Below the pieces are notes generated by a model. That model saw only the letters and a program-made list of their open reading frames with translations, ran no database searches and was not told where the DNA came from. A stretch of 64,000 nt of DNA from Ascochyta rabiei (taxonomy: Eukaryota; Ascomycota; Dothideomycetes; Pleosporales; Didymellaceae): assembly GCF_004011695.2 (NCBI RefSeq), contig NC_082417.1, positions 1,302,001 through 1,366,000 of the forward strand, given 5' to 3'. Both the position numbers and the translations under genes were made by a program. Positions 4,266 to 49,172 of the stretch are shown here, one piece after another. The stretch's first letter is position 1, and each line of letters starts with the position of its first letter.

Positions 4266-5756
4266 TCATTTACTGCTGGGAAAGAAAGCCGGACTCTTGT
4301 AGAACATTTCATCCATGTCTTCCAGGCTGAGTCCTTTGGTTTCTGGCAAGACCGCCCAGAAGACTATTCCATTTGAAAAATCGCAAGCAATGAAGATCAC
4401 GTGGAATCTCCATCCGATGGCACTGATCGCGATGGGTGTGACCTGTCCTATCATAGTGTTGAATGCAAAACTCGTCATCGCGCCGACACTTACACCTTTC
4501 ATGCGCAGCGCCGTTCCGAACAGCCCGGCCGGGATCGCCCACGATAATGGCCCCGATGTGACGAAAAAGACAAAACTGAATACCCATGTCAAAGCAACAA
4601 AGGCCCAATGAGCCCCATAACTGGTTGCCGATGCCGGAAACTGTTAAAATCAGAATGGCGTTGATCATGAATGTGACACACATGACACCCGCTCCATAGA
4701 TCTCAAGTGGTCGCAGTTCGATTCGGTCTATGGCGAGGATGCATACAGACGAGCCGGCAAAAGCGATGATGGCGTTAACTCCATTGAATAGCAAAGATTG
4801 AGAAGCTGTGATGCCGATTTGAGCGTAGATCTGAGGTGAAAAGTATTGGATCGCGCTGACCCCCGTCATCTGACATTCGGCTTGAATGAAACATGCGAGC
4901 ATCGTTCGCCTGAGGTTTGGCCAATCGCAAACAAGGTCGAAGTATGTTTTCTTATTCTCCAAATGTTCCGTTCGGGTTTGTGCTTGGATGAGGTCGAACT
5001 CGGCTACCACATAAGGATCCGAGATGTCGCCATACGCATGGAGAAGAGCGATATTACGAAGACCCTCATCAGCTCGATCGTGGGCGCATAGCCACCGTGG
5101 ACTCTGCTGTAGTATCAGCAGTTTTCCAATAGGTAACTCTCTGGTTGTAAACATTCCTCGGGAAACATGTAGATTAAGCTACCCAAGAAGAGAGCAGGAA
5201 TGATCTGTACGGCGAGCGGTATGCGCCAGTCCCGGCTGTCACCTGTTCCTTCCCAGGTGAGGTAGCATCCGTAGCCCGTCCAGCTGGCAAAGATTTGCCC
5301 CACAGCATTGAAAGGTTGCTGGAGACTAGTGACCTTCCCACGAATGCGACGGTGGGTAATCTCTGCTTGGTAGATCGGGATGATCATGGTCAAGAACCCA
5401 ACACCGAGACCAGCAATGAATCGTCCAGCATACAGCATACCAATGACCACTCCAGCAGTCTGAATTATACCACCTACAACGAAAATGCATGAAGCCATCA
5501 GAATGGTACCTTGTCTACCGAGCTTGTCGGTGAAACCTACTCTAAAAGCGCCAAAGAAGCATCCTGCGGTAAAGAGTGCTACAACGGTACCGGATCGAGA
5601 ATCGGAATTCTGTTGCGAGAAAAGAGACTTGAAAGAGTCGGATGCCACCACTTCTGCGATCACGGCCAGATCGTATCCAAAGAGAAAGGACCCCAATGAT
5701 GCAAAACACCCAACGAAATATTGATACTATGGTCTCCGGCAAAAGTAGAGTCCCAT
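4266..5756 (-). pseudogene. MFS sugar transporter relic (hexose/quinate permease type)
   Basis: Pieces in different frames match a 12-helix sugar-porter protein in order. They are GSFLFGYDLAVIAEVVAS (helix 1), GRFIAGLGVG, RDWRIPLAVQIIPALFLG, SPRWL, TGVSAIQYFSPQIY (helix 7), then WVFSFVFFVTSGPLSWAIP and a final PETKGLSLEDMDEMF. Three lesions are visible. First, an ATG at 5756 gives nine codons and then TAG (5729-5727) directly before the conserved YQYFVG. Second, between FPE and SPRWL a 53-nt intron-like segment (5156-5104, acceptor CAGCAG, branch-like CTGAT) starts with GAATGT where GTATGT is expected, so the donor looks mutated. Third, one extra base at about 4608-4611 shifts the frame before WAFVALTW. 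An alternative 5' end is possible: start at 5877, exon 5877-5842, and a 115-nt intron ending in the same TAG, joining in phase. That would remove the first lesion but not the other two. A 42-bp inverted repeat covers the 5' end. Confidence 0.82.
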
Positions 5757-5950
5757 GGCCAGTGCAGACAGGGATTCGACAAGGGTTTCTGGAAGCCTCT
5801 ACCGAAATTAAGAACATGTCCCACACCAATAAGCAGGCTACCTTTGTCTTAGTAAGATAGAAATCGTCCATGCACATCTGTAATTAACAGTTCCGTATAC
5901 TAGCCTACGCACTGGCCATGGGACTCTACTTTTGCCGGAGACCATAGTAT
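5724..5950. repeat. 42-bp perfect inverted repeat with 143-bp spacer
   Basis: Arms 5724-5765 and 5909-5950 are perfect reverse complements, both beginning and ending with the same bases (ATACTATGG...CCAGTGC in the left arm). The left arm contains the candidate transporter start codon and its first nine codons; the right arm is an inverted copy of that same coding sequence, upstream. No target-site duplication is evident beside either arm, so a MITE is less likely than a local inverted duplication or inversion. Confidence 0.85.
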
Positions 5951-6065
5951 ACGCCCGGCTGCATGGCAAAAGAATTAATGTCTGAAGTGGAGTGCGAGAG
6001 CCCAATCTCTGGAGAGTGGCCTATCTCTTTACTGTAGCCCATGGTGACCCCTCACGCGTGTCCCT
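5951..6065. other. Intergenic stretch before the LINE insertion
   Basis: Short non-coding stretch between the inverted repeat and the LINE target duplication. No gene or motif was recognised. Confidence 0.4.
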
Positions 6066-6679
6066 AACGGTCATTTGACCAGCCAAAGCAATCCTAAGGA
6101 AAGCAGACACCTACGCAGCAAAATACTGGCTAGGACCAACAAACAGGATAAAACTACCTAAAAACACCAAACAAGAGGTAGCAAGTGCCTACTACCAACT
6201 AAAACTAGGACATAGATATAATAAAGCATACCTCTACAATATACAGAAGGTAGATAGCAATAGATGTATCTGCAGCTACACACAAACAACTTAACACCTC
6301 CTACTTAGCTATAAAGAATACAAATAAGTAAGAAAAATAATACAGGACAGCCTACAAGGACAATAACTCTTAATGCAACTACTACTGCACACAACCTAGG
6401 GAATTCTAGCTACTCTAGCTTTTATTTTAGACACTAGAATAGGCACCTGCAAGTAGTACCTACAACAAACAACAGATACCTAAAAAATGCTGTTAACCCC
6501 CTAGAGCATAGGCTCTCACTATAGGACTCTGAACCTATATTTACTATCTCCTTTTACAATCACGCTCCTTAAATTACTAGAGCAGCTTAACTGCTCTCGT
6601 CTTATATAGTCTTAGACTCACACAGGACGTTAAACTTATAAATCAAATCAAATCAAATCAAATCAACGGTCATTTGACC
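6066..6679 (+). mobile_element. 5'-truncated LINE (non-LTR retrotransposon), RIP-mutated
   Basis: The body is 6081-6664, bounded by a perfect 15-bp target-site duplication (AACGGTCATTTGACC at 6066-6080 and 6665-6679). The 3' end is a simple tail of five AAATC units (6640-6664), diagnostic of target-primed reverse transcription. From 6083 the + strand reads a C-terminal LINE reverse-transcriptase tail: residues KADTYAAKYWLGPTNRIKLP, then YYQLKLGHRYNKAYLY, then a cysteine cluster (NRCICSY) followed by an HLLL motif of the kind seen after CxC in Tad-type elements (QxPEHLLLxCPxY). Stops are TAA/TAG in places expected to be Gln, fitting RIP. The 3' UTR follows. It is a single insertion in otherwise GC-balanced DNA, so it was mutated because of copies elsewhere. 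Nothing 5' of the last domain was copied. Confidence 0.85.
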
Positions 6680-8556
6680 GAGTTGTTAGCCATTGGAGTA
6701 GATGCATGTCGGTGGTTCACCCACCTTGTCATCTCCGTAAGCCGTTTGTGCATATTTTCCGCGATGGTCTACCGGTACCCCACGCGCGGTGGCGTTGGTG
6801 CGGAGAAACAAGCTCTTGTATCGGGCCGTGTTACCACACTCTGGGAATTAACGTATCCAGACATTGAATCTCCGGTGTTCAACTTGACAACCACATCCTG
6901 TAGCACCAAGATAGGATAGTTTCTTCTTTTCCTGTGCATTGTTCTGGCTCTAGTCTGTTTTCGAAGAGTACCCATAAAGTCTGTTTCCAAAGCACAACAT
7001 TCATCCTGTTACCGAACTTCTTGCGAATTAGTCTCCGGAACCACATGTAGTTACACGAATTTCAGATACACTTACATGATTGTCCGTTCATAGTGGCGGT
7101 AGTAGCTATGGCGGCGAGGCAGCAAGTTCACTCACTAACCTCGTGTCACTACACGCCTAGCGGGGTCAGACTAGCCTAGTTGACATGTCTGTTTCCGAGG
7201 CCCAACAGGGAAGACGTGCACAGTTAGAACAGGTGGCGAGTTGTAGACGACTGACGATTGTCGATTGATGGAATGCGGTCTTCAGCGAAGCAAGCGTCCA
7301 ATTGCGGCGTTTATCATCTTCTCTCGGTAGTGTCTAAGCTTAGTTGATTTACGTTGTGCAGGGCACTTGAGAAATAGAAGCATGTGAGTTAGTAGAAAGG
7401 TTACCGGCAGCTTGCAAAATCTTGTTCGTTACACCTTCCTTCTCTGATGTAGCGATATAATAAAGAAACGTAGTATAATTCAACCAGCCAGATGCTAATG
7501 CTGGCTAACTTACTACTACTTCCATCTACTCTACCTCCACTACTGTCAGGAAAAATTAATAGCACATGTATAGAGGAAAATTCCATATTTTCAGCTCAAC
7601 AAGTACATAACTAGTCTTATATTACGATTATTTATTACACAATGCTTCTATATATAGAGAGGTGTGACATGATATAACCAACTAGGTGCTGACGTGGGTC
7701 GGCTTATCAATTTCCTTTTCCAATTTACCACCACTACAGCCAGGATCAATGGCACGTGTATCGGGAGGGCTTTTAGGAGATTTGTTGTTAACCGACCGAA
7801 TTCGATGTGTCCTGTAACTCACAAGTAGAGGCATTACTCAATTGCATAAGGAACATTGATTGTTGACCTCGCAAAGGCCGGCCATCCTGGTGAGTGGGAA
7901 CAAGGGCTTGTTAAGTAAGCTTATGCCGTACTAGAACTGCTAGAGGCAGATGTCTAGACCTATCTTGTAACTGAGACCACGCTTGCTATTCCCTACCCAA
8001 TCCATTTCCATGGACACAAATTCTCAGTGCTCGCTTAAAGCTCCGGCACTTATTCGTCATCTATTTCCCTCGACCTGAGCAACCCGCCTCGCAGAGATAG
8101 AGCTGTCTTGCCACCTAGCGGGCATCTTGTGCTTGGATTCAAGACTGACAATCCTGGCGCATGGCTTATGCACTGCCACATTGGGTGACACACGAGTGAG
8201 GATTTTGTGCTTCAGTTTATCGAGAGATATGATGATTGCTGCGCTGACCAACAAGACCCGCTTGACAAATGGAGGCGAGAACCGGACCAGCTTTACGGAA
8301 GAGGCGAGTATCGAGCAAGATGACTCTGGTGTTTGAACATGGACCTCCCTTGCGTCGTTCGTATGATCTTGCTTGTATCGGGCCCCCGCCCGGTGGTGTA
8401 TTGTCTTGGTACTGATAATGCTTCTTCAACCTCCTTTCTTTTTATGGGCTTACGCACGGTGACTTGTGAACAGATTCCGAAAGAGCAATCATGCATGACT
8501 ATCTACAGGACAGCAGAATCTGGTGCTCCCAAGCTACTGGTTGTTGAGGCTTATGT
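6680..8556. other. Gene-poor intergenic region
   Basis: About 1.9 kb without a supported gene. Short open frames (for example 6674-6919 +, 8057-8254 -) have no recognisable domain and no consistent intron structure. Two diverged direct repeats of about 50 bp (around 7515-7565 and 7705-7770, sharing blocks such as CCACTAC, CAGGA and CACGTGTAT-like ends) lie in a somewhat AT-rich patch (7400-7690) that may be an old decayed repeat. This patch is only weakly supported. Confidence 0.35.
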
Positions 8557-10363
8557 CTAGTCTTTAAACCTCCACTGTGCCTTCATGTCAACGCTGAGCT
8601 TCTCTCCCCTAAACATCGCCCTCAAAATCTCGATCGGGACGTTGTTCTCCCGCATGACAGCATCGTGGAAGCTTTTCTCCTTCCACCTCGGGCCTTCAGA
8701 ATCTTCAACAAGTTCCTTTCGCAGTCTCTGGAACTGAAACGCCCCTAGCAGATAGCCCGCTTGGTACAGAGGCGGATACTCGCCAGCGAAGGACCTTCGA
8801 ACTTCGCCTTCGGCCGTGGCACGCTCATGTCCTACCCTTGTCACTAACAAATCGATGCACTCTTGAGGCGTCATCTGTCCGAGATGAAACCTGATCGAAA
8901 ATATAATGCGAGCGCAACGGTGCATCCGCCAGAAGAGCATCCCAATGCGATTTGCGGCTTCGTTCGTTGCCCATTCCTGACTGATCTCTGATGGAAAGCC
9001 GCGCTGCCACAGCAGCAGTTCCCAGTATACAGACCAGCCTTCGATCCAGAAGGGTGTTTGGAAGACACTGCGGTGCGGATGATAGCGGTCCATGTAGTAG
9101 AATTGAAGATGGTGGCCCGGAATGAGCTCGTGGTGGACTGTGGAGCGAGAGAATGCAGGATTGTTGCCGCGCATGCTCATCAATTTATCTTCATGGCTCA
9201 TACTACTAGTTGGGTAGGAGACGATGATTTGCTCGCCACCGAGGAAGAAAGGATTGACTCTTTGGCGGGCGGACGTCATCATGGTCGTCTTCCAGTAGTC
9301 TTTAGCCACAGTCGGGACAGTTATGAGGTCGTGTCTCTCAACGTAGGCAGTTGCCTCGTCGGCGAGATCGCGGACAACCTGATACCCATATTAGCTATGA
9401 TCTCGAAAAGTTCTTCAGATGATTTGTTCTCACAAGAGTCTGTTCGCCGGGCTCTACAAACGTGTTTTTGACATGCTCCAAAGCCTCTTGACGTCGATCG
9501 AATCCTAACGCCGTGCTCGCTTTTTCCATCTCGTCCTCACACCACTTGAACTCTTCTTCAGCTATCCGCACAAGCTCCTCAGGGGTATAAGCGACCCACT
9601 CCGCCTCAAGCTCTTGCAGCAGTGCCTCACGACCAATTGGGTCACCGACGATATCATCTGCACTCCCAGATCCATCGATTCCAGTTTTCTTACCTAAAGC
9701 CAAAGTCAAAGCAGTCAGTTTGGTACTCAAGACCTCCCAAGGCTTCTCAATCCACCACGAGATGACAGGATCATAGCCTTGGTAAAACCCAACTGCTTCT
9801 TTTAGTGCCCTTTGCAACTCTTCGAATTTGGCAATCGTCCAGAACATGATGAACCGCTCCTTACTGTCTCCAAAACCACCTTTGGAATCGAGTAAGCATA
9901 GCAGCTGATCGACGCCTTGCTCAGCGCTTTGCAACGCAGTAGCAATCTGTCGTCCGCTCTGTCTGCCAACATTATGTCTCATTTCGACAAAGTTAATACA
10001 GACGTCGACCCAGTCTCCGAAAAAACCAAGTTCCTTGGCTGTGTGGACCTTCTCGGTTGTAACCTTGTGCAGATGGAGCAGTCTTCTGATGTGGGATTGC
10101 AGAAGAAGATAATCCACTTGCTCATTCTGACGAAGACGATCGAATTCGAAGCTTTTAGAAAGAGACGCAAGAGTTGATGTGAGGAATTCTTCGACTTTTT
10201 TGGCACGAGTTGGGCTAAACGAGATGCTCAGGAAGGACTGGATGTCGGCAAGGTCTGCTGTGAATGTTTGAATAGTGGTCTGGATCGTCTGGATCTCTTT
10301 TGGCTCCGGAAGCTGGAATGGCTTTGTCGCAGGTATTGGCGTTATGAGCTGTCTACGGGTCAT
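8557..10363 (-). CDS. DUF885 family protein (putative metal-dependent hydrolase), two exons
   Basis: Exon 1 runs 10363-9434 and exon 2 runs 9378-8557. The 55-nt intron (9433-9379; GTGAGA...TATCAG with branch-like GCTAAT) lies in phase 0 and joins EPGEQTL to VVRDLADE. The product is 583 residues. An in-frame GTG lies three codons upstream, but ATG at 10363 is the first ATG, and the upstream frame reaches a stop within about 40 bases. The diagnostic motif is HELIPGH at residues 393-399, followed by a FWIEGWSVYWE block, as in the DUF885 (PF05960) family, where an HExxPGH-like motif suggests a zinc site. No signal peptide or membrane segment is visible, so it is probably cytosolic. The substrate is unknown. 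It does not overlap its neighbours and lies between the transporter relic and the OPT gene; no functional link is evident. Confidence 0.88.
9379..9433 (-). other. Intron of the DUF885 gene
   Basis: 55 nt, donor GTGAGA, acceptor TATCAG, branch-like GCTAAT 15 nt before the acceptor, phase 0. Removing it restores one continuous 583-codon frame. Confidence 0.85.
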
Positions 10364-11851
10364 GATGTCCACGGCAAGGGCGAAGCAATTGATGCTGCGT
10401 AGTTATGAGTTTGATAGGAGCGATGACGAGCGGAGGTGATCAGGTGATAGGCAGCTAGCAAACGCCTTGGGAGCGTCGAAGTCAATGCACATCTTGTGCA
10501 ACCTCGGCACGCTTCCCGTGTTGCTTATCGTCCAAGGCAGGTGTCGCATGTAGGCGGTCACGTCGTTACACTGTGATAGATGCACGCTCGGTGCTTTCCA
10601 AGGTTGGGGTTTAGAGGTATTCCGTTATTTTTCGAGCTAAGGCACGCCGTAAAATCGCATTGGACGGAGATACGGATGAAGACGATCTTGCCTGTATTTG
10701 TTAGCTACATATGTTATCTGGTATACCTCTGTACTGTAATTTTTTTGAATTCTGTTACTGATAGAAAGAGGGGTATGCAGCAGTACAGCTTACCATGGAG
10801 GACCTTGGAGACATTATTCAACTCGTTATCGGGCCTGCAGTTGCTGCAATCGTCGATATCCTGTGCCGGACGTGGTTTCTGAGGTGCTGCCGATGATCGC
10901 TGACGAGCTCGGAGATGATGAGGAGGAGTACGGTGAAGGAGTGGAGGATGTCTTGCCGGATGGCTACTATTCACGCGTGCGGCAGCCGCTGCCATATTAT
11001 CAACACAACCTCTTTCTGCAAAGATCCAAGCGCATGGATGAGGTTTCCTGTAAATATCGTCACCGATTTCCTCTACCTCTTTTCTCCGTGTGCCCGTGCG
11101 TCCACTAAAGTGGCAGTAGCGCGGCACTAGTCACACCCTGTATCCACACGGCTTATCCCCAGTTCCTCACATCAACCTTGTGAACGATAGCTGGCAACTA
11201 ATCAGGTCTCATCCGATCTCGCTTTAAGTCTCTTACACACAGCTCCTCACTCTACTCGGGTGTATGGCATGGTCTTGATCCGACGGGCGACATGCGACTC
11301 AGGTCAAATCCTGCTAGGGAGCAGTCCTCATTGGCCGCCGATCCTTCAGGTAAACGCGCGGAGTACGCCCGAGGCAATAGATAGTAACCCCACCTTTCGT
11401 GGTACGGAACATACGGATGTTTGTGACCCATGCCTCGCGTCGCAGCAAGAATCAGACACAGCACATTGTCGCCAACCACGAGATTGATTACTCTCAAGGA
11501 ATGCGATAGCCCACTGTTTTCTGGAAACTAGAAGCTTGCTGCGACGTGGAAGCCATGCTGGAGTGTCCGGCTTTTTCGGTAAAATGATAAGTTATCACTT
11601 TGAGATGTGACCTTCTCTTTCACGCCAAGCGCCATGATAGCTAATGCCTGCATGCATGGATTGGGAGGAGCAACAGATATAACCACGCCACCATGGGACA
11701 TCGTTGTGGGTGTCCACATTCAACTTGAACCGTACAAGGTCGTCAAGGGGCCCGACACCTGTAATTTCGCGATCGTCTCCTTCGCCAAGCGCTGATGTTT
11801 GACTACTGCCAAACAGCAAGATCGTGACAATTGAGTCAAGGACGAAACATC
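10364..11851. other. Divergent intergenic region between DUF885 and OPT genes
   Basis: About 1.5 kb containing both promoters. One small ORF is worth noting: 10795-10896 (+), 33 codons, with a good start context (TACCATGG) and a hydrophobic middle (IIQLVIGPAVAAIVDIL). It could be an upstream peptide or the first exon of a small unrecognised gene continuing into the acidic frame at about 10863-11050, but no matching splice sites were found. The other frames are shadows. Nothing else is supported. Confidence 0.35.
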
Positions 11852-14215
11852 ATGGCCGAACACATCCGCTCCTTCGAGACGAGCGACGCTTTGGAAGCCC
11901 TAAACGAGAAGCAATCAGCCAAAGCTTCTGCGGGTGCAGTCTGCACTTCCACCCCTACAAACCAGTCCACCGAAGTTACGGACGAAGTTGCCATTGCGAG
12001 CGAATACGTGGAAGCCGCTGTTCGAATTGAAGATGGCGAAGATCCTGCCAACACACTTCGCGCATGGGTGCTTGGCTTTTTCTTCGTCACCGTCGCCGCC
12101 GGCGTGAACATGCTTCTTTCTATGCGATCACCTGCCATCACCATTCCAGTAGTCGCCATACTTCTCCTAGTCTATCCCGTTGGCTGCTTTTGGGCCCGGG
12201 TAATGCCTACTCGGACATTCAACACATTTGGTGTAGTCTGGTCGCTGAACCCAGGCCCGTTCAGCATTAAGGAGCACACCGTCATTACACTTATGGCATC
12301 TGTCACGTCTGGATATGCCTATTCCACCGACGCTCTATTGGCGCTTCAAGCCAAGTCACTCTACGATCACAACCTTGGTGTGGGCTTTCAGCTTTTGTTC
12401 ACTATCAGCAGCCAACTCATCGGTATCTGTCTTGCTGGACTTGGCCGCCGTTTCCTGGTTTGGCCTGCTGCTCTGACATGGCCATCCAACTTTTCCACCA
12501 CAACGCTGCTGTATGCCCTCCACGACAAGTCTAAGACAGATCCCGCGCAGGCCAATGGCTGGTCCATCTCTCACTATCGCTGGTTCGTCTACGTCGCGTC
12601 AGCCATGTTTGTCTACTACTGGTTTCCAGGCTTCATATGGCAAGGTCTATCGGTTTTCGACTTTCCGACGTGGATCGCGCCCGACAACGTCGTTGTTAAT
12701 CAACTGTTTGGAGGGTTTACTGGTCTCTCATTGATCCCTTTGACTTTTGACTGGTCAAATGTGATTCCGTATCTGGGGGATCCGCTTCTATCGCCAACTC
12801 TCTCACACGTGAACACTCTCATTGGTCTAATTGTGTTCTTCATTGTTCCAGCGCTCGGGATCTCATATTCGGGTGCTCTCTACTCTGCCTATCTGCCCAT
12901 GAACACCTCGACTCTCTTCGACAATACTCAAAACCCTTATGTTGTGCGCAATATCCTTGGAGCAAACTTCACCTTCGACGTCGAGAAGTACAAGGCCTAC
13001 TCACCCTTGTTCCTCGCGCCAACATTTGCGCTCAATTATGGTCTCAGCTTCGCGGCCTTAACCGCGTCTGTGGTTCATACCATCCTCCACCGTGGCAAGA
13101 TCCTGGTCCGACAGTTCCGAGAAGCCTCCTCTCAGACCGAGGATATTCATTTCAACATGATCAAGAAGTACAGATCAGCTCCGGATTGGTGGTATCTGGC
13201 TTTGCTGGTTGGTTCGCTTGCGATGGGCTTTGGCGTTGTGGCAGGCTATGACACTCAACTTCCATGGTGGGGATTTCTCGTCGCCTGTATTATTGCTGGA
13301 GTCTTCGTCATCCCCTGCTGTACTATTCTGGGTATGACGAACATCTTGCTCTCCTTAAACGTCATAAGCCCTTTTATTGGCGGATATCTCTTCCCGGGAA
13401 AGCCCATCGGTGTGATGATATTCAAGGTGTACAGCACGATCGTGTTAGGTCAAGCTCAGGTATGTGGTGGTTCTATGCATTTCTGTCTATGTTTTTTTTT
13501 AGCTAACACACTTGACTATTAGACGTTCTGCGGCGACCTCAAACTGGCCCAATACATGAAAGTCCCGCCGCGTATCACCTTCAGTTCACAGATAGCCGCA
13601 ACAATTTGGTGTTGTTTCGTACAGATTGCGACAATGGACTGGGCGTTGGCCAACATCGAGAATGCTTGTGAACCCATCCAAGCCAACCACTTTACCTGTC
13701 CGAACGGTCGGACATTTTTTTCATCGAGCGTTGTCTGGGGTGTCATTGGTCCCACACGTGCTTTCGGAAGCCACAGTATTTACAAGTACTTCAACTTATT
13801 CTGGCTTGTGGGCGGCGTCCTTCCGATCGCTCTGTGGGGACTTGCAAAGACGATGAAACATCGATACATCAGCAACCTCCACGCTCCGGTCATGCTTGGC
13901 GCAATGGCATGGCTGCCCCCAGCCACTCCTCTCAGCTTCTTCTCATGGATCATCTTTGGACTTATCTTCAACCTATGGATCAGGAAGCGATGGCATGAAT
14001 GGTGGCGCCAATACAACTACTTGACTGCTGCCGCTTTAGACACTGGTTTGATCTTGAGCACCGTGGTGATATTCTTCGCTATCACTCTGCCTGGAGTCAA
14101 TGCACCGCAATGGTGGGGCAACGTAGATGTTTTCAATACGTTGGACTATAACATGATGGCATTTCGCAAGACTGTGGCGAAGGGAGAGACGTTCGGACCC
14201 AAGGAGTGGCATTGA
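11852..14215 (+). CDS. OPT family oligopeptide transporter, two exons
   Basis: Exon 1 runs 11852-13459 and exon 2 runs 13523-14215. The 63-nt intron (13460-13522; GTATGT...CTATTAG, with CTTGACTATTAG at its 3' end) joins GQAQ to TFCGDLKLAQYM in phase 0. The product is 766 residues. The N-terminus to about residue 75 is hydrophilic and cytosolic. NPGPFSIKEH at 133-142 is the hallmark of the peptide-transporter (PT/Isp4-like) clade of the OPT family, and multiple hydrophobic segments follow. The late block with NACEPIQANHFTCPNGRTFF, VVWGVIGPTRAF and the C-terminal QWWGN also fits. Known role: proton-coupled uptake of small peptides such as tetra- to hexapeptides or glutathione at the plasma membrane; the exact substrate cannot be read. 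The start is ATG 11852 (CATCATGG). The gene appears intact and is the last intact gene before the AT-rich block. Confidence 0.93.
13460..13522 (+). other. Intron of the OPT transporter gene
   Basis: 63 nt with canonical donor GTATGT, a poly-T run, and acceptor TTAG preceded by TTGACTA. Phase 0. Without splicing, the frame stops inside it. Confidence 0.88.
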
Positions 14216-14789
14216 TTTGACAACTACGGCCAGCAAAATGATATCTGTCCACGCTCATGATTCGCACAAGACCTTCGCAGCTCCTGCGGTCAAAGATGTG
14301 ACTATCTCATTTAAAAGATGTTCCGCATAAGCCAGAATGCATAATCATTTTGCGACCTTAGAAGTCATTCGATGACTACGCAATCTGGAAGGGTGCCTTG
14401 CTAAATAGTCAAATAATGTCGCTAGATAATGCAGTTCCTCTTTTATATGCATCAGAATGCTTGGACGTCCCCGCGACGATGATGGAAATCAACCAGTGCA
14501 CTTCTGTGATCCCAATCAACTGATGGAAGACACGCAGTGAAGATCCAGCGTTTCTCAGCGTCAGGGTCTCCCCTCAGGCCCCATATGGTCTGAGCACGTT
14601 CGAGTCAGGACACATTAGTTGACGTCTGGGCAATCTCGCCACACTGTCCGTGTCCACATAAAGCAACTTCGACTCTTATGACATGCTGTGCAATGCAAAC
14701 CATAAGTGGACCATCCCACACTCCTTCCTGGCGACACAAGCCCAGTAGCTCAAGAGCGCGGCAAGCCGCTTTCGATGCTCTCTAAACTT
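14216..14789. other. Intergenic region after the OPT gene
   Basis: Non-coding: the OPT 3' region and the 3' flank of the P450 relic. No gene is supported. Confidence 0.4.
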
Positions 14790-15870
14790 TATAACGGTGA
14801 CGTAAAGCTGTTCGACAAGGCCCATATCCAACGTGAAGAGCAGATGTTGACCTTGACCTACCAGTGTCGCGGCATGGACGACTATGGCGTCGAAAGAGGC
14901 TCGAAGCTGTCGAAGACTGTCTCTCGTGGTTCTGGACAGAATGCCGAATGTCTCGTTTTCAGCACCAGGTAGTGGATGTGTAGGAGCCGACACTCTTTCA
15001 ATGCTTGAGCGCTCATCGAGCTCAACGTACAACACGGGCGGCTCACATAGTCCAAAACCGGGTAAAAAAGCTGAAACCAACCCTCGAAGTCCGTTAAAAG
15101 TGCAAGTCTTGTATGAGTGGCAGTTTTGCTGCGCTCAAGTAGTAAATGCTCTCCTGACATTACGGATACGGAGACCTTGCGATTTGCCTTCGTGAAAACG
15201 TGGTCAAAGACCGCGGTTGAGATCGTAGGGCTAAGAGCACCAGCAAAAAAGATCGCGCTGGCCTCCAGTTGCAAAAAAACTAGCTCCAGGTTTTCCAGTA
15301 ATGCCAAATCCTCAGGATCTGGACGTCTAGTCATCAAAAATCTTGAAAGAAGATGCCGTGCGCCTCGAAGATGTGCCAATGCAGCCGGACCGTTTCCTCG
15401 ATGTATCTCGTAGCCGATAATAAGTGACAGGGCAAAGAGCGTCTCGACTCGCCGTGCAGTTTTGCATATTGTGTTGCAATACTGTGTGCACCACGACCCG
15501 CTTCCTCGAGCTTGTCAACAAGCATGTCCACGGACTCTGCAATGAGAGGCTCCTGAGACTTGAGGGAACGGCCAGAGAAAGCGCTGCTGAGATAACGGCG
15601 CATTTCGGCATACCTCCTGGGATCACTCTCGCTCACGATAGAAAACAATCCTGCGGAAAGTTGCCTCCGTCGTAGATCTCACTCTTGACGAAAGGCTCTA
15701 CGCCCTTGCGGGGGCCGAAAGTATCACGCCACGAGGAAGATGAGCTGAAGCTTAGCATGTTGGGTGCGACGCGAACAACAGGTCCTGCTAATGATGAGTC
15801 GCGCTCTGGAAAGGACAGTAAGACGTTAAATTACCGGATTTTTCATGGAGTTCAAGTTTCAAAAAAGGCT
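14790..15870 (-). pseudogene. Cytochrome P450 relic (CYP65/isotrichodermin-hydroxylase-like)
   Basis: The reverse strand carries P450 blocks in order. LHEKSG joins to GPVVRVAPN across a 51-nt intron (15834-15784; GTAATT...TTAGCAG). Next come the block ending KSEIYDGGNF, SDPRRYAEMRRYLSSAFS and LKSQEPLIAESVDMLVDKLEE. Further along, IFFAGALSPTISTA resembles helix I, and LLFTLDMGLVEQ resembles the final strand region. The frame is broken at about 15655 (FSIVSESDP is in a different frame from GGNF) and again after 15500. The helix C-to-F stretch is largely missing, and no FxxGxRxCxG haem-binding motif could be found, so no active enzyme can be made. Base composition is balanced, so decay was by indels and deletion rather than heavy RIP. 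It diverges from the acyltransferase relic, a typical secondary-metabolite cluster arrangement. The family call rests on the GPVVRVAPN...YDGGNF...RRYLSSAFS pattern; the subfamily is uncertain. Confidence 0.72.
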
Positions 15871-16550
15871 GTCTGCCTGTCATATCCTTCCACGAGCACA
15901 GAATCTATGCCAGTTTTGTCAGAAGAGAGCTCTTTCAAGCTCCTGCATCATTCAATGTGGATCGTGAAGGACTTGCATTGCTGAACGATGCTGAAACCGG
16001 ACCTGGGGATTTCCACAAGGGATGATATCACAAAATTGAGAGCTTGTACAGCAGCCGGATGGCTAGCACTTGGGTTAAGTCAACATCTCATGCCGCAGTC
16101 AAAGGGGTTATGATTGGAAAACTCACCAAAATAACAATTTCGAGCATCATTCCAAATATCGATACCTTGAATTATTATTCAACAATTTCCAAAAAGGGAT
16201 GACAATTACGTAGGCCTTGATGAAATTCAATCATTTTCGGCGTGTGTTGGTTCAACCGGATTAAATCCATCATAGTAGTTCAGATAATTTCACAGTCGGT
16301 ACAGGCCGAGGCCCCACTTCCAGCCCATGCCTGGTGGGCGTCCTCTTGACGATATGATTGCGAACGATTTTATTGGACCTCTCGTTGGCGTTTCGACGCT
16401 GAAAGTGACTATTTCTTACCGGTCGGACCACTCAATGACGGCTGAGGGGCTTACATCATTAACACATCTCCTGAGCAACACCTAGAAGCTGCATTCTGAC
16501 CCTATCATGTCGTCCGCAACTATGCCGCCCGAGGTGGATATAAAATCACG
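15871..16550. other. Divergent region between the P450 and acyltransferase relics
   Basis: About 680 bases, presumably the former shared promoter. An N-terminal P450 anchor segment was looked for upstream of 15870 on the reverse strand and not found in any clean frame. No other gene was seen. Confidence 0.35.
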
Positions 16551-39200: not shown

Positions 39201-40145
39201 GTTAGTAATTATAATGCTATTAAGTGCGTAATAGTCTACGCACATACGCTACCTACTAGAGAACTTTTTAACTAGCAGGACTAGAGCCCCTGCTAGGGAA
39301 GAGGAGGTGTAGATCTACCCCTTGTCTATTAGTGCTAACACCTGTTTCTGTAGCTTAAGTAGCTAGTCTCTTAGTATGTTATACAGAGGGCCCTAGGGTA
39401 GAGGCTTCTCCTTTCTAGACTAGTTACGTTACAACTATATGTAGTAATCTATCTAGCCCCTATATAGAGAAAGGCTAGAGGCCTTACTCTTATTAAATAG
39501 GTTCTAAAACTAGACTACCTTAGGGGGAAGAGGGTCTACCTCCTCTGCCGTCCCTTACGCTCCTAGGGATTAAACTAAGAGGATCTTAGTAATGTTGTAG
39601 AGGCTTGTAGAGATAAACCAGTCCCTAGGCAGGCGCTTCTAGAGCCTATTAGCTAGGGTCTTGTTAAACTTAGTTACTAATAGGAGAGCTATATAAACGT
39701 TTGCTGTACACTGTAATAATTTATAGATAATAAGGTTCCCTGCCTGTTATATCCTTAGTGTGCCCTTTTCTGCATCTAATACTACGCCCTCTTATTAGAG
39801 CTAGGGTTTCCCTAAAATAATATCCTAGCTTAGACCTAGCACTACGTAGGCTATAGCCTGCAAGCACTACCTATCTAAGTTGTACCTAAACAGGACTAAA
39901 CAGGAGATTACAGACTTCCTACTAGTGCCTACTGCTTACGCTAAGTGTTATAGCAGCACCTTAATAAAGTCTCCTCCTAAGCGCGTAGTAAAGTTATTAC
40001 TTACTATACTAAAGTATTTACACCCTAAGTCTACTAGCGCGTTAGCCTAAATTACCCTATTAATAAATAACAGAACGTAGAATAGGGGCTTGTTTATAGA
40101 GTCTGTAATAGCTCCTCTAGCAGCCTATAATGCCCCTGTACTAGT

Positions 40146-40342
40146 TGTTAGGCCTACTCCTTCCGCTTGTTCCGCATAAGGAGCCAAGGGTCCAATTGCG
40201 TAGCAGGGGTGGCGTAACTATATAGCCTACGTAAATTGCTCTAATCCTTTTAGCAGCAATTTGTCTATCTATAACCTGCAAATACACACTCTATCTTTAA
40301 ATGCTTAATAACGTGCCACCCCTCTAAAAAGAGATCCTGATA
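40146..40342 (+). repeat. 5' LTR of Gypsy-4
   Basis: 197 bp, TGTTAGGCCTACTCC...GATCCTGATA. It matches 47302-47498 except at scattered transitions. Confidence 0.9.
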
Positions 40343-43300
40343 TTCGAATTGCTCCCCACTACACGTTATTAAAATGCAGACTAGACAACAGAGCCAACGT
40401 GCAGGTTGGTCTGAAAGCGGTCAACCCTCAGGTACACCAGTACCCTCCGGACTCATCGTCGAGGAAGACACTGCTACCGCTCGCATCTAAAGCCTACCTT
40501 CCTTAGTAGAAAGGGACGTCGCAGAAAACGCCAGACTAGTTGAAGATGGAGCAACCTAGCAGAGACCAGGAGGGCATCTAGTAAACCCTCCTAGGACACA
40601 AACACCTATAATGGTCTAGAACAATGCACCATTGTCTCTAATAGACCAGGAACTGGAAGACCTCCGCCTATAGCTAAGAAACGCCTAGAAGAAAAGCAAG
40701 ATTAATTAACTCTGTTAACTAAGGGCTAAGTACAAGTCGGGAGACACGTTAGTCCTCCCTCCAACTTTAACTCTACTAAGGACCCTCGCAACAACATCCT
40801 CAGGCCTATTAGCCAACCTTCTAAAGCCAGATCTACCCTAAAGATACAATAAGAAGTCAAGAGCAGAATACAACTGCTAGGAATACGACTGCAAATCGTA
40901 TTTCCTACGTTCTCTAATCAACTTTACAAAGGAGAACTAAAAGGTGGATTTTAAGGCAATGTACCTTTCTAAGCCACTAAAGACTCTATAGAAATCCTAT
41001 TGCACAACAGAACAGACTAGTTCTCTATCCTGGCGACTAACCTGGGAGATACTGAAAACTGTTATATTAAACGCCCTAGGAACGCTGTCAGAACAGAAAC
41101 AGCAAGCCTATAAGACTCTTAAGCGAATCTAGCAAAAGCCAAACCAGTCACCTACAGATCTGCTAGATGCCCTTCGACCCTTATAGGAGGAACTAGGCTC
41201 AGCCCAAACTCTAGAGCTTTAAGTGATAGAGTACATCTCGTCTCTGCGCAAAGACATTTAGAGAGACCTGTTCCTACTCCCAGTTAACAGACACAACACT
41301 CTTCTAATAGTAGAAGAACATGCCAACGTTATCTACTGCAGAAAAAATCTGGACAAGGAGGCAAAGGCTACTTCTGTAAAGAGGTGGCCACTAAAGGCTA
41401 GAAATAAGAGTAATAAGGCGGGGGAAGCAGAAAAACCCCTAAAGAAACAGAAATGGGCTGATAGGGGCTATAACGGACTGTCCGCACACAGAACCACCAG
41501 TACCTAAGACAAAGGCAAGGGTTAGACCTGTTATAATTGCGGAAAGTTCAGTTACACTACAGCTAAGTGCCAAAGCCCTCTAAAGGACAAGGGTGATACA
41601 GCTAACCAGAAAGAAACTACTACAGAATTAAAGGAAGGCTTAAACACCAATTTAGGAAAAGGGAAAGGGCAGAAAGACTAATCCCATACCTTTCCGCCTA
41701 CATTACGTTAAACTAGGAAACAAGGGACCTAGGGAAATTAAGGGAAGCCCTTTACCCCTATCCCTCTTAGTTATTAACTGTGCAATGCACAGTTTAATCC
41801 TCTAAGCCTATAGAGGCCATAATCGATAGAGGTTCCTAGCTGAACTTGATGTCAGCTACGCTAGCAAAGGAACATGATCTCTAAGTAGACCCCCTGCCTA
41901 AGCTGCTGGCTAAAGGCGTAGATAGGGGTAGATTGACAGTGTATAGTACCACGACAGTGGATATAACTATCACTAATTTACATAGTTATAAAGAGACCTA
42001 TCAAGTACCATTTGTGGTAACAGACCTTTAAAGATACTTAGTGTACTTAGGTCTTCCCTAGATTAATATGTTTTATCTAAGGATTAGCTACGTTACTAGA
42101 CGTATGCTCTTTTAGAGGAACAAGGACAACAGGTTTGTCCTGTTTACAAAGGTGGCTACAGAAGACGCTGAGCAGTTCAAGAGCAGTATAAGAGAACCTA
42201 ATACAGACGTCTATGCGTGCCTTGTTAACTTCGTAGGCTATAGAGGGTTAGAAGATAACACTATAGGTTATTTACCTCTAGAATATGTAGAGTTTGCAGA
42301 TATAGGCTTAGAGGAGGACTCTAAGAGTCTCCTAGAGCATAGCTACCACGATCTGTCTATAACTCTAACACCTAATAGTGTTCTACCTTACTAACTATTA
42401 TACAACCTCTTAGTAACTAAGCTAGAGATACTTTAAAACTATCTTTAGGAGTATATGGCAAGAGGATGGATACGTTGGTTAAAGTCTCCAGCAGGGGCAC
42501 CTATACTCTTTGTTAAGAAGAAAGATAGCAGCCTAAGACTTTGTGTTAACTATTAGGGCCTTAATAAGGTCACGGTTAAGAACCGACACCCACTACCCCT
42601 GATTACAGAGTCACTAGAGAGGCTCTCTTAGGCGAAGTATTTTACTAAGCTTAATGTAAGAGAGGCCTACTATAGGATTCGTATTGCAGAGGGAGATAAG
42701 TAGAAGACTGCTTTCTGTACTAGATACGGACACTATAAGTATACTGTCATGCCTTTTAGCCTAACTAACGCCCCTGCCTAGTTTTAAGCATATATTAACC
42801 ATGCTCTTATAGGACTAGTTAACATATGTTACATCGTCTATTTAGATAATATCCTAATCTATTTGGGCATAAAAGAAGATTATATACAGTATGTAAAGGA
42901 TATACTATAAAGACTGCGCGAGTCTAAGTTATATATTAAACTTAGCAAGTATAAGTAGCACACTTAACGCATAGAGTACCTTAGATACGTAATCAGCCCT
43001 AAAGGGGTCAGTATTAACCCAGAACGGGTGAAAACGATCCAGGAATGGCCACAACTACAAACAGTCTGTAATATTTAAGTGTTTATTAGTTTTATAAATT
43101 ACTATTAACAATTTATCTATAGTTTCTCTAAATTGGCCTTACTATTGACTGAAATGACCTATAAGACCCCAGGATCTGCTAGGGGGGGTCCGGCAATAAG
43201 AAGAGAGGAAGGCCAGAAAATGGACATCGGAGAAAAAGGCAGATCTGCCTTCCAGAAACTTAAGGACGTGTTCACCCAAGTTCCTATACTCTCCTACTTT

Positions 43301-45767
43301 AATCCTTGTTAGAAAACAAGAGTAGAGGTAGACGCGTTAGGAGGCGTAATCTTAGGCATTTTGAGCCAGTATGTGCCAGAAGGATCCGGAACAGGTTAAT
43401 AGAGGCCTATTAGTTTCTTTTCTTGTAAATTGATCCAAGCGGAATACAATTACGATACTTATAACAAGGAACTGCTTGCAATTATTAAGAGTTTAGAGTA
43501 CTAGCGTTACTACCTTAAAGGTATACACTTTGAAATCCTTACAGACTATAAGAACCTAAAGTAGTTTATAGAAACTAAGACTCTTAACTATTGCTAGATT
43601 TAGTCCTATCTGGCCTTGACTCAGTTTAATTTCACCCTTACCTACCAACCAGGGACTACTAATCCTGCAGATGGACCCTTAAGGCAACCAGATTATAAGG
43701 CAGAGACAGAGAAACCTTCACTAAAGTACAACGAAGCTTTTGTCCAGCCTCTTTAAGATTTGTTCTCCTCTAAAGGAAAGAACAACTTCCTTATGTCAGC
43801 TGTTACAACACAAGCATCTCTAAGGTCTAAAGAACAATCAGAAATTGTTAAAGCCCTCTAGAAGTTCCAAGCAAAGGAAAGTACTGCAACTAGGGATCCG
43901 CACAACTATAAGGAAGAATCTATAGTTAAACTAGACTTAGATACAACCTCTAATAGATATAACACTGAAACGGACTATAATAACCTAGAACAACTTGCTA
44001 CGGGCAACAAGGCCTTAAAGCACTTGACTACTCCAGAAGAGAAGTCTAAGGCTCTCTAAGAGTGCTATGACGATCCACTCGCAGGACACTTTAAGGTTAA
44101 GAAGACACTAGAGAAGCTTTAACAACGCTACAAGTAGAAGGGGATAAGGAAGGATGTAGAAGACTATTGTAATAACTGTTTAGTATGCAAGAAGGCAACG
44201 CTAGCACGTTACAAACTATATAGTCTTCTAGCACCTCTAACTCCTCTAAACGCAGCCTAGGAGAGCGTAACAATGGATTTTATTACAGAGTTACCTTCTA
44301 GCTGCCTAAACAATTAGGTATATAACGCTATCTTAGTAGTAGTATACAGACTTACTAAAATATCTTACTACATTCCAGCCAGGGCAGATTGGGATGGAAC
44401 GGACCTAGCCTAATCCTAGATAAGAGAAGTAATACGCTTACATGGTGTCCCTAAAATAATAATTTCAGATAGAGGACCACTTATGTCAGCTAAGCACTAG
44501 GATACTTTCTAACACTACTTAAATTTAAGAAGGGTGTTAACGTCCGCTTACTACCCACAAACGGATAGACAAACCAAAAGACAGAACCAGACACTTAAAC
44601 AATACCTAAGGTGCTACTGTTGCCTAGAACAAGACAATTAGAGCCTATAGATATTAGTTGCGGAGTTTGCGTATAACAATAGCATACATATAACTACAGG
44701 CACTACACCGTTTAGAGTATACCACAGCATAGACCCTATTAGTCCTAACTAGCCCAGTATGCCTTACGGGAGCGGGGAATCACCCCTAGGGCAACAAGTA
44801 GCTACAAAGGTTATCGCTTTATAACAGAAGTGTAAGAGGAAAATTATTACTGTAAATAAGTACTAAAAGTTATATGTAGATAAGAAACGCTTGCCGCATA
44901 CGTTTAAAATAGGGGATTAAGTTATAGTTTTAAATCAGCATATAAGATTAACAAGGCCTAAGAAAAAGCTAGACTGGAAATACTTAGGACCAGGCCACAT
45001 AGTGGACCAATATGGCCTAACAGCATTTAAAGTTAATCTTCCAGGCCTACAGAGCGTACATCTAGTCTTCTATGCGTCCTTACTAGAACTATATAATCTA
45101 AGGGGTCTTATTCCACACCTAGAGACTCTGATTGTAGACACATTGCGCAAACACAGCAATAATGTTTACAATGTGGACATAATTCTAGATAGGCGCAAAG
45201 GAGACAACAATTAGTAGGAGTATTTAGTAAAATAGACTAGCTATAGAGAAGAATAAAACTTATAGGAGCCTAGCCAAAATATCTCTAGTAACATACTTTA
45301 ACAATTTTAGAAATCTAAAGGCATTAAGCCTAAGAGAAATCCTAAGGGGAAAGAGACTACTAAGCGTTAAGGGCGACCCCCTAAAAAGAAGAGGGATAAG
45401 CAAAGGCAATAAGAGGATCCTAAGGAGACAACGTACCTTCACTAGTTTTCCTACAGGGTTTTTAGGGTGTTTAACGGCGTTAAACTCCAGGACTACCTTA
45501 GCCTACCTTGTAAGCCTAGGTAAAGGTCTATAATAGACCATAAGGAACCTATGCCATCTATAACACCTCTATAGAAATCTTATAAGGTTAAGGGAATTCT
45601 AACATTATAAGAAGAAAACATTTTACAAAAGTAAGTACTCTATTAAATTTAAGCCTAAGGCTTAGGTATGTCTAGGATTTCTAAGGGAAATCTAACTATA
45701 GAAATTGTTTACAGTTATAGTATTGTTAGTATTATAATAGTCTATAATAGACTATAATGCAGCACCC

Positions 45768-46637
45768 TTACTCCCTTCTAGCCGCATTGTGGTTATCTAG
45801 CTTCTTCTGAAGCGCCTTAATCTTCTTAGTCGCAGCCGTCTTCTTAGCGCTAGAAGAAGCCGCCTTCTTACTTAAGAGCACGGCCATCTGAGCAGTCAGG
45901 GCGTCGCTAAGCCTCTTAAACTCGCCAGCATGGTTAGGGACGTGCTTGCGGACCCTGGCCTATAAGGGGTCAGAATAGTCTATTAGGGAACAGAGGGAGT
46001 ATACATACCTTCTTACGAGAGGTATTAACCTCCTTAGCCAGCTTCTTAGTAATAGTGTTCTTAAGGGCGCGCTTACTAACCTTAGCCCAGGCCAACACAG
46101 ACTTCTTGCTGCGTTGGCGTTGATTAGGGCAAAACTCAGATTAAGGATCCTTATCCCTACTAATGGCAGCAGAGTGTAGGTAGAGATAAGCAGCGTAAGG
46201 GGTGTACAAACTACCTATAATGAGTTATAATAGACTAAAACAACACTAAGGGACAACTTACTAGGAATAGGCCTGCAAAATAGACTAAGAGTGCAACATA
46301 AGGTTATACTTGGCCGCCTTCTTCTTAGGAACAGTTATAGGGCGCAAAGGACGCACGCTATTGACCTTAGGGGCCTCTATGTTGAGGACGCCATCTTCCA
46401 AATTACAGAGGATGATGCGGATCTTACCAAGCTGGTTGTTATAGTCCTTATGGAGCTGTTAAAGTTAGTTATTACAACCTATAATAGATTATAGTTAGTC
46501 TAAAGAATAAAAATATATACAGCAATGCACTCTTAGTTAGCAGAGAAGCACCTAAAGCAGCGCATGACCTGTTCCTTGTTACTAGAAGCTGTCTCTAGCT
46601 GCCAGGACTTGTACAGGTTGCAATTGTCCTTAGTAAG
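45768..46637 (-). pseudogene. Antisense multi-exon gene of Gypsy-4, unknown function
   Basis: Opposite strand to gag-pol, between the chromodomain-like tail and the 3' LTR. The exons are 46637-46521, 46455-46262, 46210-46009 and 45959-45768 (117, 194, 202 and 192 nt). The introns are 65, 51 and 49 nt with donors GTATAT, GTAAGT and GTATGT; the first and third show CTAAC and CTGAC branch sites. All phases agree and give 234 residues plus stop, with only three internal stops (TAA, TAG, TAA). Exon A has Cys pairs (MRCFRCF; NCNLYKSW). Exon B contains LEDGVLNIEAPKVNSVRPLR and basic patches. Exons C and D are Lys/Ala-rich with a probable coiled coil or basic helix (KKIKALQKKLDNHNAARRE at the end). 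An upstream 5' exon is likely but not found. It is richer in GC than the flanks. No known family was recognised. Confidence 0.6.
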
Positions 46638-47301
46638 CTAGGCATAAACACAACTAACCCTGCCACAATGCTTAAATTAACTAGAAGTAAAGCTGCAAAT
46701 GCACTAAACGTAAAGCTAAATAGACTAGACGCTATTATAGGCTATATCGTTGCTAACTGCGTTTAAATCTATAGTTGCGTGTGGCCTTAACAGAGAAAGG
46801 GCTTAGTGGTGGTAGTGTGGTAGGCTTAGGGCTGGGAAATGCTTATATGGTGCGGTTTAATTCTAAAGAACTTAGTTAGCCACCTATAGGACCCTAACGA
46901 CCTACAATAACCTATAAGGACACATTCCAGAACAACAAAGGAAAATCTATTTAAGCTAATAGATATTATTAACTTACTAAAAAGAGGAGTAGAGTGTAGT
47001 AGTAATAGTCTAAAATAGGGAAGTACGATAGTTATACCTGGACCCTGAGCTAGCAGCACATAGACCCACTTATTTTGCAGGCAACTGCGCAAAATCAGAG
47101 GTGAGAGAAGAAGTGAAGTGAAGGTGAAGGTGGAGGAGGCCGAATCCCCCAACAGGTTCGAGGAAAATCCTTCCACCACTAAAACACGCACCTAGGGTAA
47201 CAGCAATGCCCTGTAGACCATAATGGTCCATAATTACTTACTTAATCTCAAAAGCCTACCATCTTGGTTACTTGGGACAAGCAACCCTAGAAGGGGGATA
47301 T
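46638..47301. other. Gypsy-4 segment between the antisense gene and the 3' LTR
   Basis: It would hold the promoter or first exon of the antisense gene. A reverse-strand open frame (47191-46826) is hydrophobic and not convincing as a protein. It ends with the polypurine tract of the retroelement. Confidence 0.35.
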
Positions 47302-47498
47302 TGTTAGGCCTACTCCTTCCGCTTGTTCCGCATGAGGAGCCAAGGGTCTGATTACGTAGCAGGGGTGGCGTAACTATATAGCCTACGTGAATTGCTCTGA
47401 TCCTTTTAGCAGCAATTTGTCTATCTATAACCTACAAATACACACTCTATCTTTAAATGCTTAATAACGTGCCACCCCTCTAAAAAGAGATCCTAACA
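47302..47498 (+). repeat. 3' LTR of Gypsy-4
   Basis: 197 bp, TGTTAGGCCTACTCC...GATCCTAACA. It shows the intact TG...CA ends. Confidence 0.9.
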
Positions 47499-49172
47499 CT
47501 AGTAGTCTCCCCTACTAATATACTTCTACAGTACTCCTAACTTAGACTTATATTAGGAGCAGCTAGTTTCCCCTATACAAACTAGCCTCTTCCTTACCTA
47601 AGATTATTACTGCCTGCACTATAGTTACTACTACATTAGCGCAATCCTAGTAAATATGTCCCTTTTTACTGCAACAGGTACATAGGTTAGCCTCCTAGTA
47701 TTGCTAAAATACCTTATTAGGAACCTACGTAGCCTAGTTAGGAGCAGACTGCTTCTAACCCCTACGCTTAGCACTACTGCTAGTGCAAACTGCAGACACA
47801 ACTGTTATCTTAATATTGCTATCCTTATTATGCTTAGGCGGCGCCTAAGTAGGGATATAGCGTAGCTGGTTTTCTATAGCTATAGTCTTAACGTCTATAG
47901 TAATAGACTTATACTCTATAATAGCTGCGTTATAATCTATATAAGTTACTTCTTAGTTTATTACTATATTATAGATGTTTATGTTTAGGGCCTAGCAGAG
48001 CTTTAATAGGTGTTGTTCTCTATCCTAGTAGAGGCCGCTACTTTGCACTAGTAGCTGCTTAAACTAGATTGAAAAGTCTAAGAACAACTTGTTAGACCCT
48101 TAACAGACGCTTTCTAGTTTTGCCTAGGCCTGTTTCTAGCTATAGTTATTGCTGTAGCAGAATTCTAGGTATACTAGGAAGTCCTCTAGGCTCTACCCAC
48201 CTTAGGTACCCCTAATCTTATAGAACAGAGCTATATCTTGTTGTATAGATATACTAAGCTAGGACTATATAAAGGTAAACATGTCCTATAGCCTACTAAT
48301 AAAGAATATGTCTGCCTGTAGCTTGTATTCTATTATAACCTACTATACCTTAAATAAGGATTTGTCCCTAGTAAAGGCCTTACCTATAGGAAGAGGTTTC
48401 CTATAGGCTGTAGACGTCTGCATAAGGGCATATAGGCCTAGGTTAGACGCTAGAAACAGCGCTTTATAAGGCAGGTTAGGGGCTAGGGTAGACGTTAATA
48501 GGTACAGTGTTACTCCTAAGAAGGACAAAAGGACTATAGACGCAGGTCTAGTACAGGCGTTAGCTGTTTATACTAGGGACTCTACAAACACACATATATT
48601 AGAGTTATTACGCTTAAGCAATACTATATACTTATTAGTAGCTAATAAGGCTTACTATAAGTTTGTTATAAACTGCAATATCTAGGCTATAAATTCCTAA
48701 AGGGTTAAGGGGACAGATTTGTCTAAGGGGTTATTCTAGGAGCTGGCTGACATAGTACAAGTGCTAGCTATTCTCCTAGAAGAAGAGATACAAATGTTAT
48801 AGACTAGCCTTAGGGTAGGATGTAATAAGGGTTAATATAGTATTATATCTCTTATAGAGGTAACACGTTGTATGTCCTTCTAATATGTCTGTAGGGCACG
48901 TAATTGTCCTGTCTTGCTTAAGGCTTAGACAAGGTCTAAGCCTATAACATCCGCTATCTTATAGGATTTAAGGCAGCTCTTCTAATAGTTATTATCTTCC
49001 TTCTATGCCTTTAGACTGTTAGCTGATAGTTCAGATAGGATTTTAGGAATCTAAGGGTTTCCCTGTTTATTATTACTAAGGGCTAGCCTCCTCTTATAGT
49101 TAGTGATGTCTAGGGCGTTAGGTACTTGTGGCTTAGTCCTTAGAGGGATAGTCTGGTTTAGGTCTATCTTCT

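Follow-up and report, generated by a model that had tools for sequence, protein, structure and literature searches.

A predicted spliced gene antisense to gag-pol in a gypsy chromovirus lineage of Ascochyta rabiei

Genes that face the opposite way to gag-pol, in the space between pol and the 3' long terminal repeat (LTR), are already known, in fungi from Boty-like gypsy elements, whose brtn gene was reportedly described by Zhao et al. in 2011. In these elements of Botrytis cinerea and Sclerotinia sclerotiorum, brtn is antisense to gag-pol and lies between pol and the 3' LTR (PMC7264820, PMC8365987). The domains of Boty-like elements are gag, a zinc knuckle, reverse transcriptase (RT), integrase (IN) and a chromodomain (PMC4227169), brtn is named in BcGypsy1 (PMC8365987), and a Monilinia transcript is similar to BRTN (PMC5987419). 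Here we describe a predicted gene in the same arrangement in a gypsy element of Ascochyta rabiei, within a 64,000-nucleotide stretch of contig NC_082417.1 (positions 1,302,001 to 1,366,000; the whole stretch is called the window, and coordinates are counted from its first letter). The gene is very probably real, spliced and resident in a fungal gypsy chromovirus lineage.

Like brtn, the window gene faces against gag-pol and lies between pol and the 3' LTR of a fungal gypsy element. Its host is a different one, and it has three introns; a profile search of a database whose sources include nr gave no sequence link to brtn, BRTN itself not being directly aligned. The antisense open reading frames (ORFs) of the plant gypsy elements Grande, RIRE2 and Retand also share the position and orientation of the window gene (PMC7264820). 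A preliminary description of this locus had mentioned that such ORFs are known in some plant gypsy elements. The Grande protein (gene23) is nuclear and has its own promoter, and 97% of Retand clusters encode TRP28/PF04195 (PMC7264820, PMC11963269). The proteins here are different: Pfam did not find TRP28 in either of the two types described below, the window type and the E type. The word "intron" does not occur in the main text of PMC7264820 or PMC11963269. A spliced form is described for HBZ of HTLV-1, an antisense gene with a nuclear protein (PMC10186651), and the HTLV antisense promoter lies within the 3' LTR (PMC7264820). The gene here is, like HBZ, an antisense gene of a retroelement, and it is predicted to be spliced; the putative TATA-like box of the E-type gene lies inside the element.

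In the literature searched, which lacked most subscription papers, we found no fungal LTR element reported to carry an antisense gene of several exons, and we therefore rate the conserved, spliced fungal form as the new part. The preliminary description had considered such a gene in a fungal element to be notable. For the predicted splicing this stands, but fungal antisense gypsy genes have been known since Boty brtn and are less rare than it had claimed.

The window gene and its copies

On the minus strand between pol and the 3' LTR, tail-to-tail with pol, we predict a four-exon gene with three introns, laid out as follows.

46773..46860, minus strand: C/A-rich leader upstream of exon 1, either a 5' untranslated region or, with a 3' splice site at CTATAG (46774-46769), part of a further intron
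46521..46772, minus strand: exon 1 to the limit of the conserved frame (46521-46637 as first called, plus 135 nt upstream)
46456..46520, minus strand: intron 1, 65 nt, GTATAT..CTAAC..CAG
46262..46455, minus strand: exon 2
46211..46261, minus strand: intron 2, 51 nt, GTAAGT..TAG
46009..46210, minus strand: exon 3, with the fewest between-group transversions of the four exons
45960..46008, minus strand: intron 3, 49 nt, GTATGT..TAG
45768..45959, minus strand: exon 4 including the terminal stop; basic, Lys/Ala-rich

The four exons and the introns of 65, 51 and 49 nt lie where the preliminary description had placed them. With exon 1 as first called, exons of 117, 194, 202 and 192 nt give 235 codons in the window copy, with three internal stops and the terminal stop, in agreement with the 234 codons and three stops counted before. 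The exons proposed there are real, but the upstream end at 46637 was not correct, as the conserved frame reaches 46772. An in-frame stop just upstream of 46637 is a sense codon in some other copies, and the extension by itself scores z 2.3, 2.5 and 2.0 in three cross-group pairs in the shuffle test described below. With it, the gene has about 279 codons. Exon 1 ends in C-x2-C-x6-C followed by two residues and a phase-0 intron.

The genome (40.9 Mb, 23 contigs) contains at least 23 DNA matches of the 870-bp gene region. One host gene of the window shows 88% identity to Ascochyta clinopodiicola and 86% to A. lentis. We aligned 18 copies over 45200-47300, omitting a split copy (L006/L007) and a duplicate locus (L009). 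Five of these form group A (94-100% identical to the window), one forms group B and twelve form group C, where L020 and L021 read the same. Across 45200-47300, both B and C share 65-70% identity with the window copy. The preliminary description had proposed other copies of the element as a check on the exons and splice sites, and these are indeed conserved. The four exon lengths are identical in 17 of the 18 copies (L012 is without 2 nt of exon 3), and the three introns are present in all 18; in B and C, intron 1 is shorter by 6 nt and intron 2 longer by 8 nt. In the order of introns 1 to 3, the splice GT is kept in 17, 18 and 18 copies and the AG in 17, 18 and 16.

To test for coding, the BLOSUM similarity of each frame inside the exons was compared with that obtained after the alignment columns had been shuffled. 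The antisense gene frame gave z 5.5 (L005-L008, A-B), 6.3 (L005-L011, A-C) and 3.5 (L008-L011, B-C), and two further pairs with L001 gave 6.0 and 5.3; the five other frames ranged from -2.8 to 2.0. Each of the three cross-group pairs showed 0 indels per 840 exon columns, against 9/906, 7/903 and 7/900 in non-coding columns (Fisher p.004,.016 and.016).

The copies are damaged by repeat-induced point mutation (RIP), which is the cause of the stops in the antisense frame. In 17 copies (L012 omitted, terminal stops included) we counted 294 in-frame stops, 241 TAG, 53 TAA and 0 TGA, so that the earlier remark that all stops are TAA or TAG holds across the family; the other five frames of the same copies hold 1 to 25 TGA. 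Of the 30 stop positions, 22 have CAG, CAA or TGG in one or more of the other copies, and codon 23 is TAG in 17/17 copies. Among two-state polymorphic sites, 175 of 207 in the five copies of group A are C/T before A or G/A after T, with 8 transversions, and 243 of 417 in 10 C copies are in RIP context, with 61 transversions. The TA/AT ratio is 1.82 in the window element and 1.51-1.83 over three A copies, compared with 0.72 in the host stretch 1-16000 and.86-1.01 in three copies of family E. As every aligned window-family copy is damaged, the window copy is a relic. The A pair L005-L002 shows 0 transversions at 522 four-fold and 2 at 2611 zero-fold sites (pol plus antisense gene), from which we infer that group A spread recently and was damaged afterwards.

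The element that hosts the gene has the following parts.

40146..47498, plus strand: full-length gypsy (chromovirus-type) element, 7353 bp, bounded by an LTR pair, ends read from the sequence
40141-40145 and 47499-47503: 5-bp target duplication CTAGT flanking the gypsy element, read from the sequence
40146..40342, plus strand: 5' LTR, 197 bp, beginning TGTTAGG
41708..45247, plus strand: pol stretch used in comparisons, stop-damaged, with RT, RNase H, integrase zinc finger and SH3-like regions
47302..47498, plus strand: 3' LTR, 197 bp, with the polypurine tract AGAAGGGGGAT just before it

Pfam recognised the four pol regions in the frame from 42002, and the pol stretch aligns without gaps to seven other copies from groups A, B and C. 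A zinc knuckle gag CYNCRKFGHTAAKC and a chromodomain-like pol end, as in a chromovirus, were recognised by eye, not by Pfam, in L022, a related copy. Target duplications were read at the window element, L022, L030 and L031, and Rfam gave 0 matches within 40100-47600.

Some further observations were made on the copies. L026 (family B) looks mosaic in its transversion profile, being nearer A than C in parts of gag/pol and nearer C from about element position 4200. The split copy L006/L007 (C5:743428-746163) belongs to family A, and its antisense gene is split by some 1.9 kb of inserted DNA. Near the element of L004, at 3583-3252, the 335 bp of window 45200-45534 occur a second time, inverted and with 80% identity. 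By eye, TCTATTATAGACTA and close variants recur on the minus strand of window 45730-47300, in the introns, leader and 3' flank of the antisense gene.

A second family with an intact antisense gene

An RT query for other gypsy families in the genome, with 129 of 618 candidates scored, found family E, whose RT is 49-52% identical to that of the window family. Family E is hardly RIPped, yet pol of copy L033 is broken by stops. This copy carries an intact antisense gene of three exons and 278 aa at the same place between pol and the 3' LTR, and the E-type protein has at least 163 exon matches in the genome. We compared six E-type copies: L033, L043 and L044 (E), L042 (E'), L046 (G) and L045 (H). 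G is a RIPped form of E (5/774 transversions) and H a RIPped form of E' (7/774); compared with E pol, that of L045 is 62% identical and that of L046 69%, and in both the gene lies past the pol end on the opposite strand. Exon lengths are 270/294/272-273, or 270/294/278 in L042. Both introns are present in all six copies, intron 1 being GT..AG in 6/6 and intron 2 in 5/6 (G reads AT); in L033 they are predicted at 7025-7071 and 6684-6730 of the oriented element. The antisense genes of L033, L043 and L044 are fully open, and those of G and H have many TAG/TAA. A TATA-like GTATATAAGGACT stands upstream of the start in all six copies; in L033 this putative promoter element is about 100 nt upstream of the ATG, inside the element, which suggests a promoter within the element itself. 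In the window family no perfect TATA was found in the five copies scanned.

Selection was tested with transversions only, to avoid RIP. Between E and E', with the last 63 nt of exon 3 omitted, we found 28/112 at four-fold and 37/501 at zero-fold sites (Fisher p 6.7e-7), with 77% amino-acid identity and a gene-frame z of 8.9 in the shuffle test. For the predicted E-type gene, purifying selection at codon sites is clear.

Some E elements are without all or part of the gene. Three of the four first fetched (L032, L034 and L035) have separate deletions of 1045, 1611 and 754 nt that remove it partly or wholly and keep pol; the junctions bear short direct repeats, and L032, one of these three, has a pol frame open for 1143 codons. 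Among the 13 pol matches listed at 49-52% (E' omitted), judged by position, three have the complete gene, two have exon 3 only and eight have none among the exon matches listed. It thus seems that the gene is not needed in cis, which is consistent with a regulator acting in trans or with a function useful only at times. In another family, D (L036-L039), which is heavily RIPped, the antisense (minus-strand) frames of L036 between pol and the 3' LTR hold a Lys/Glu/Ala-rich coiled-coil-like stretch, and this family possibly holds a third type of antisense gene.

The two predicted proteins have features in common. The L005 protein has a pI of 9.7, with 32 basic and 6 acidic residues among its last 110, and the E-type protein has a pI of 9.2; both types have a Cys motif and basic runs or a basic tail, which is compatible with nucleic-acid binding but not proof of it. 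They also agree in position and orientation, in length (about 279 codons for the window type, 278 aa for the E type) and in the end of exon 1, which both close with C-x2-C-x6 or x7-C, two residues and a phase-0 intron. Shuffling the residues of exon 1 reproduced that end in 60/50000 (A) and 2/50000 (E) trials, for a motif picked after it had been noticed. Common descent of the two gene types is possible.

The preliminary description had assigned the protein to no recognised family, and our Pfam scans and profile search agree. Searches of the antisense proteins against Pfam, NCBIfam, PHROGs and PDB gave nothing of weight, the one Pfam match being weak, to Endonuclease_7 (E.12) in one of seven window-family copies. 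HBZ is a bZIP protein, whereas Pfam found no bZIP domain in the window-type or E-type proteins.

Points against the gene and alternative explanations

A number of results weigh against reading the locus as a conserved coding gene with a nucleic-acid-binding product. In the window family, the deficit of stops in the gene frame compared to shuffles is modest (z -2.3, -1.8 and -0.9), sense frame 0 is about as open, and 8 of the 30 stop positions have no CAA, CAG or TGG in any other copy. No start codon was seen in this family: the codon at 46772 is ATA in 18/18 copies, where it sits within CTATAG (46774-46769; TTATAG in L008). This may be a start-codon slot altered by RIP, as in the damaged G and H copies, which read ATA where E and E' have ATG. 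Alternatively, CTATAG may be a 3' splice site with a further exon upstream. Farther upstream, position 46977 has a conserved 5' splice-like site, and a branch site and a 3' site are present at 46879 and 46863. Extra exons before 46772 were considered, but none of the antisense frames in that part gave consistent scores across the two group pairs and the gene was therefore not extended.

Protein-level constraint is a further weak point. The zero-fold/four-fold transversion ratio of the antisense gene, based on few four-fold sites (44-67), is.62-.80 when A is compared with B or C and.37-.43 between B and C; for pol it is.14-.19 across the same group pairs. As these ratios exceed those of pol, the predicted window-family protein is, by this measure, much less constrained. 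Group A differs from B and C more in its 3' module than in pol, and B has a mosaic appearance, so recombination may account for part of the excess. Positive selection, suggested by A-C zero-fold transversions (.143) above the four-fold value of pol (.073), was rejected because the module flanks are equally divergent (.126-.139; introns.041-.118) and the elements look mosaic. The purifying selection that the preliminary description had set as a check is therefore clear in the E-type gene and weak in the window gene. In the E type itself, the E' copy L042 has one in-frame TGA, and one sense frame scores z 4.2 between E and E'. The introns (.075, 7/93) and upstream stretch (.103, 16/156) diverge less between E and E' than four-fold sites (.25) and are near zero-fold sites (.074). 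This could be due to constraint on those stretches, which is the only explanation we offer.

Homology searches also gave no support. Among 5.8 billion proteins from sources that include nr, a single sequence returned 330 candidates, none with E<=1, and a seven-copy profile returned 6465, none with E<=10. A host GMC gene used as a control had 504 matches at E<=1e-50, and of the 120 listed those with names are fungal, so the database does contain fungal proteins. Pfam recognised no DNA-binding domain in either protein type, and an hhalign comparison of the two antisense profiles gave no homology (probability about 1%).

Could the functional product be the antisense transcript rather than a protein? 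Such an RNA would pair with genomic RNA and feed double-stranded RNA (dsRNA) silencing or block pol translation, and the frame would be incidental. The unit would indeed overlap the genomic RNA completely, a dsRNA role has been suggested for plant antisense ORFs (PMC7264820), and the weak constraint on the window protein would suit this explanation. However, the absence of indels is specific to exons, conservation is seen at the amino-acid level, codon sites are under purifying selection between E and E', and an RNA function would need neither codons nor splice sites. We consider this alternative improbable.

Retroelements are able to capture genes, and the locus could hold a recent capture, either a transduced host gene or a gene of another mobile element nested here. 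The lack of any link of the protein to gag or pol would be expected from this. On the other hand, at least 63 exon matches of the protein occur in the genome and, among the matches listed, all are inside the same 19 element copies, and the gene also occurs in groups that share no more than 65-70% identity with the window copy in their 3' regions. Capture is for these reasons quite unlikely. The preliminary description had called this an intron-bearing cargo gene; we read it as a predicted spliced antisense coding gene, as proposed, but one that looks like a resident of the lineage and not like passing cargo.

It is very unlikely that the exons are chance open frames in AT-rich, RIP-altered DNA, with spurious GT..AG pairs and few stops by luck. 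A single copy might give this impression, with three internal stops, a short splice consensus and a stop deficit of only z -2.3 to -0.9, but chance would not account for frame conservation across groups, fixed exon lengths, exons with 0 indels, the lack of TGA or the intact, intron-bearing gene that a second lineage has at this position. Least credible is an env-like sense gene of which the antisense signal is a mirror image. In its favor, sense frame 0 has rather few stops (17-28, where 28.6-32.1 are expected, two copies of the pair summed) and one sense frame upstream of the gene, at 47120-47001, scores z 3.7 and 2.0. Within the exons, however, the sense frames show no amino-acid conservation (z -2.6 to 2.0), and no conserved sense frame was seen to stay open through exons and introns.

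How the gene might persist and act

For the coding gene that we favor, we propose the following mechanism. A promoter of its own, within the element, would drive transcription of the antisense gene, and the transcript would then be spliced. The full-length element RNA would run the opposite way, so that only sense RNA would be reverse-transcribed. Because this genomic RNA is sense, we infer that the antisense introns cannot be spliced out of it, and they would pass through reverse transcription in every generation. The retention of introns in every copy examined fits sense-only reverse transcription, and the earlier proposal that antisense introns survive retrotransposition agrees with the three introns kept in 18/18 window-family copies. 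The introns would thus persist in a retroelement because they face the opposite way.

The protein, Cys-rich in its N-terminal part and with a basic tail, might act on the element in trans. As its most likely role we tentatively suggest that of a nuclear, nucleic-acid-binding accessory regulator, which is possible but which we would not assume. More doubtful is a broader hypothesis, in which the clade would reserve the space between pol and the 3' LTR as a slot for antisense genes that have a promoter of their own and introns protected by their orientation. The genes in this slot would encode nuclear regulators, acting in trans, that evolve fast or can be replaced, and deletion derivatives would spread by dropping the gene and borrowing the protein. 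If this were true, the regulators in the slot would provide an HBZ-like control or a counter-defence in an organism that silences repeats. Intact, conserved, intron-bearing genes appear to occur beside natural deletion variants in the same fungal genome, and with intact genes next to variants that are without them, their function would be directly testable.
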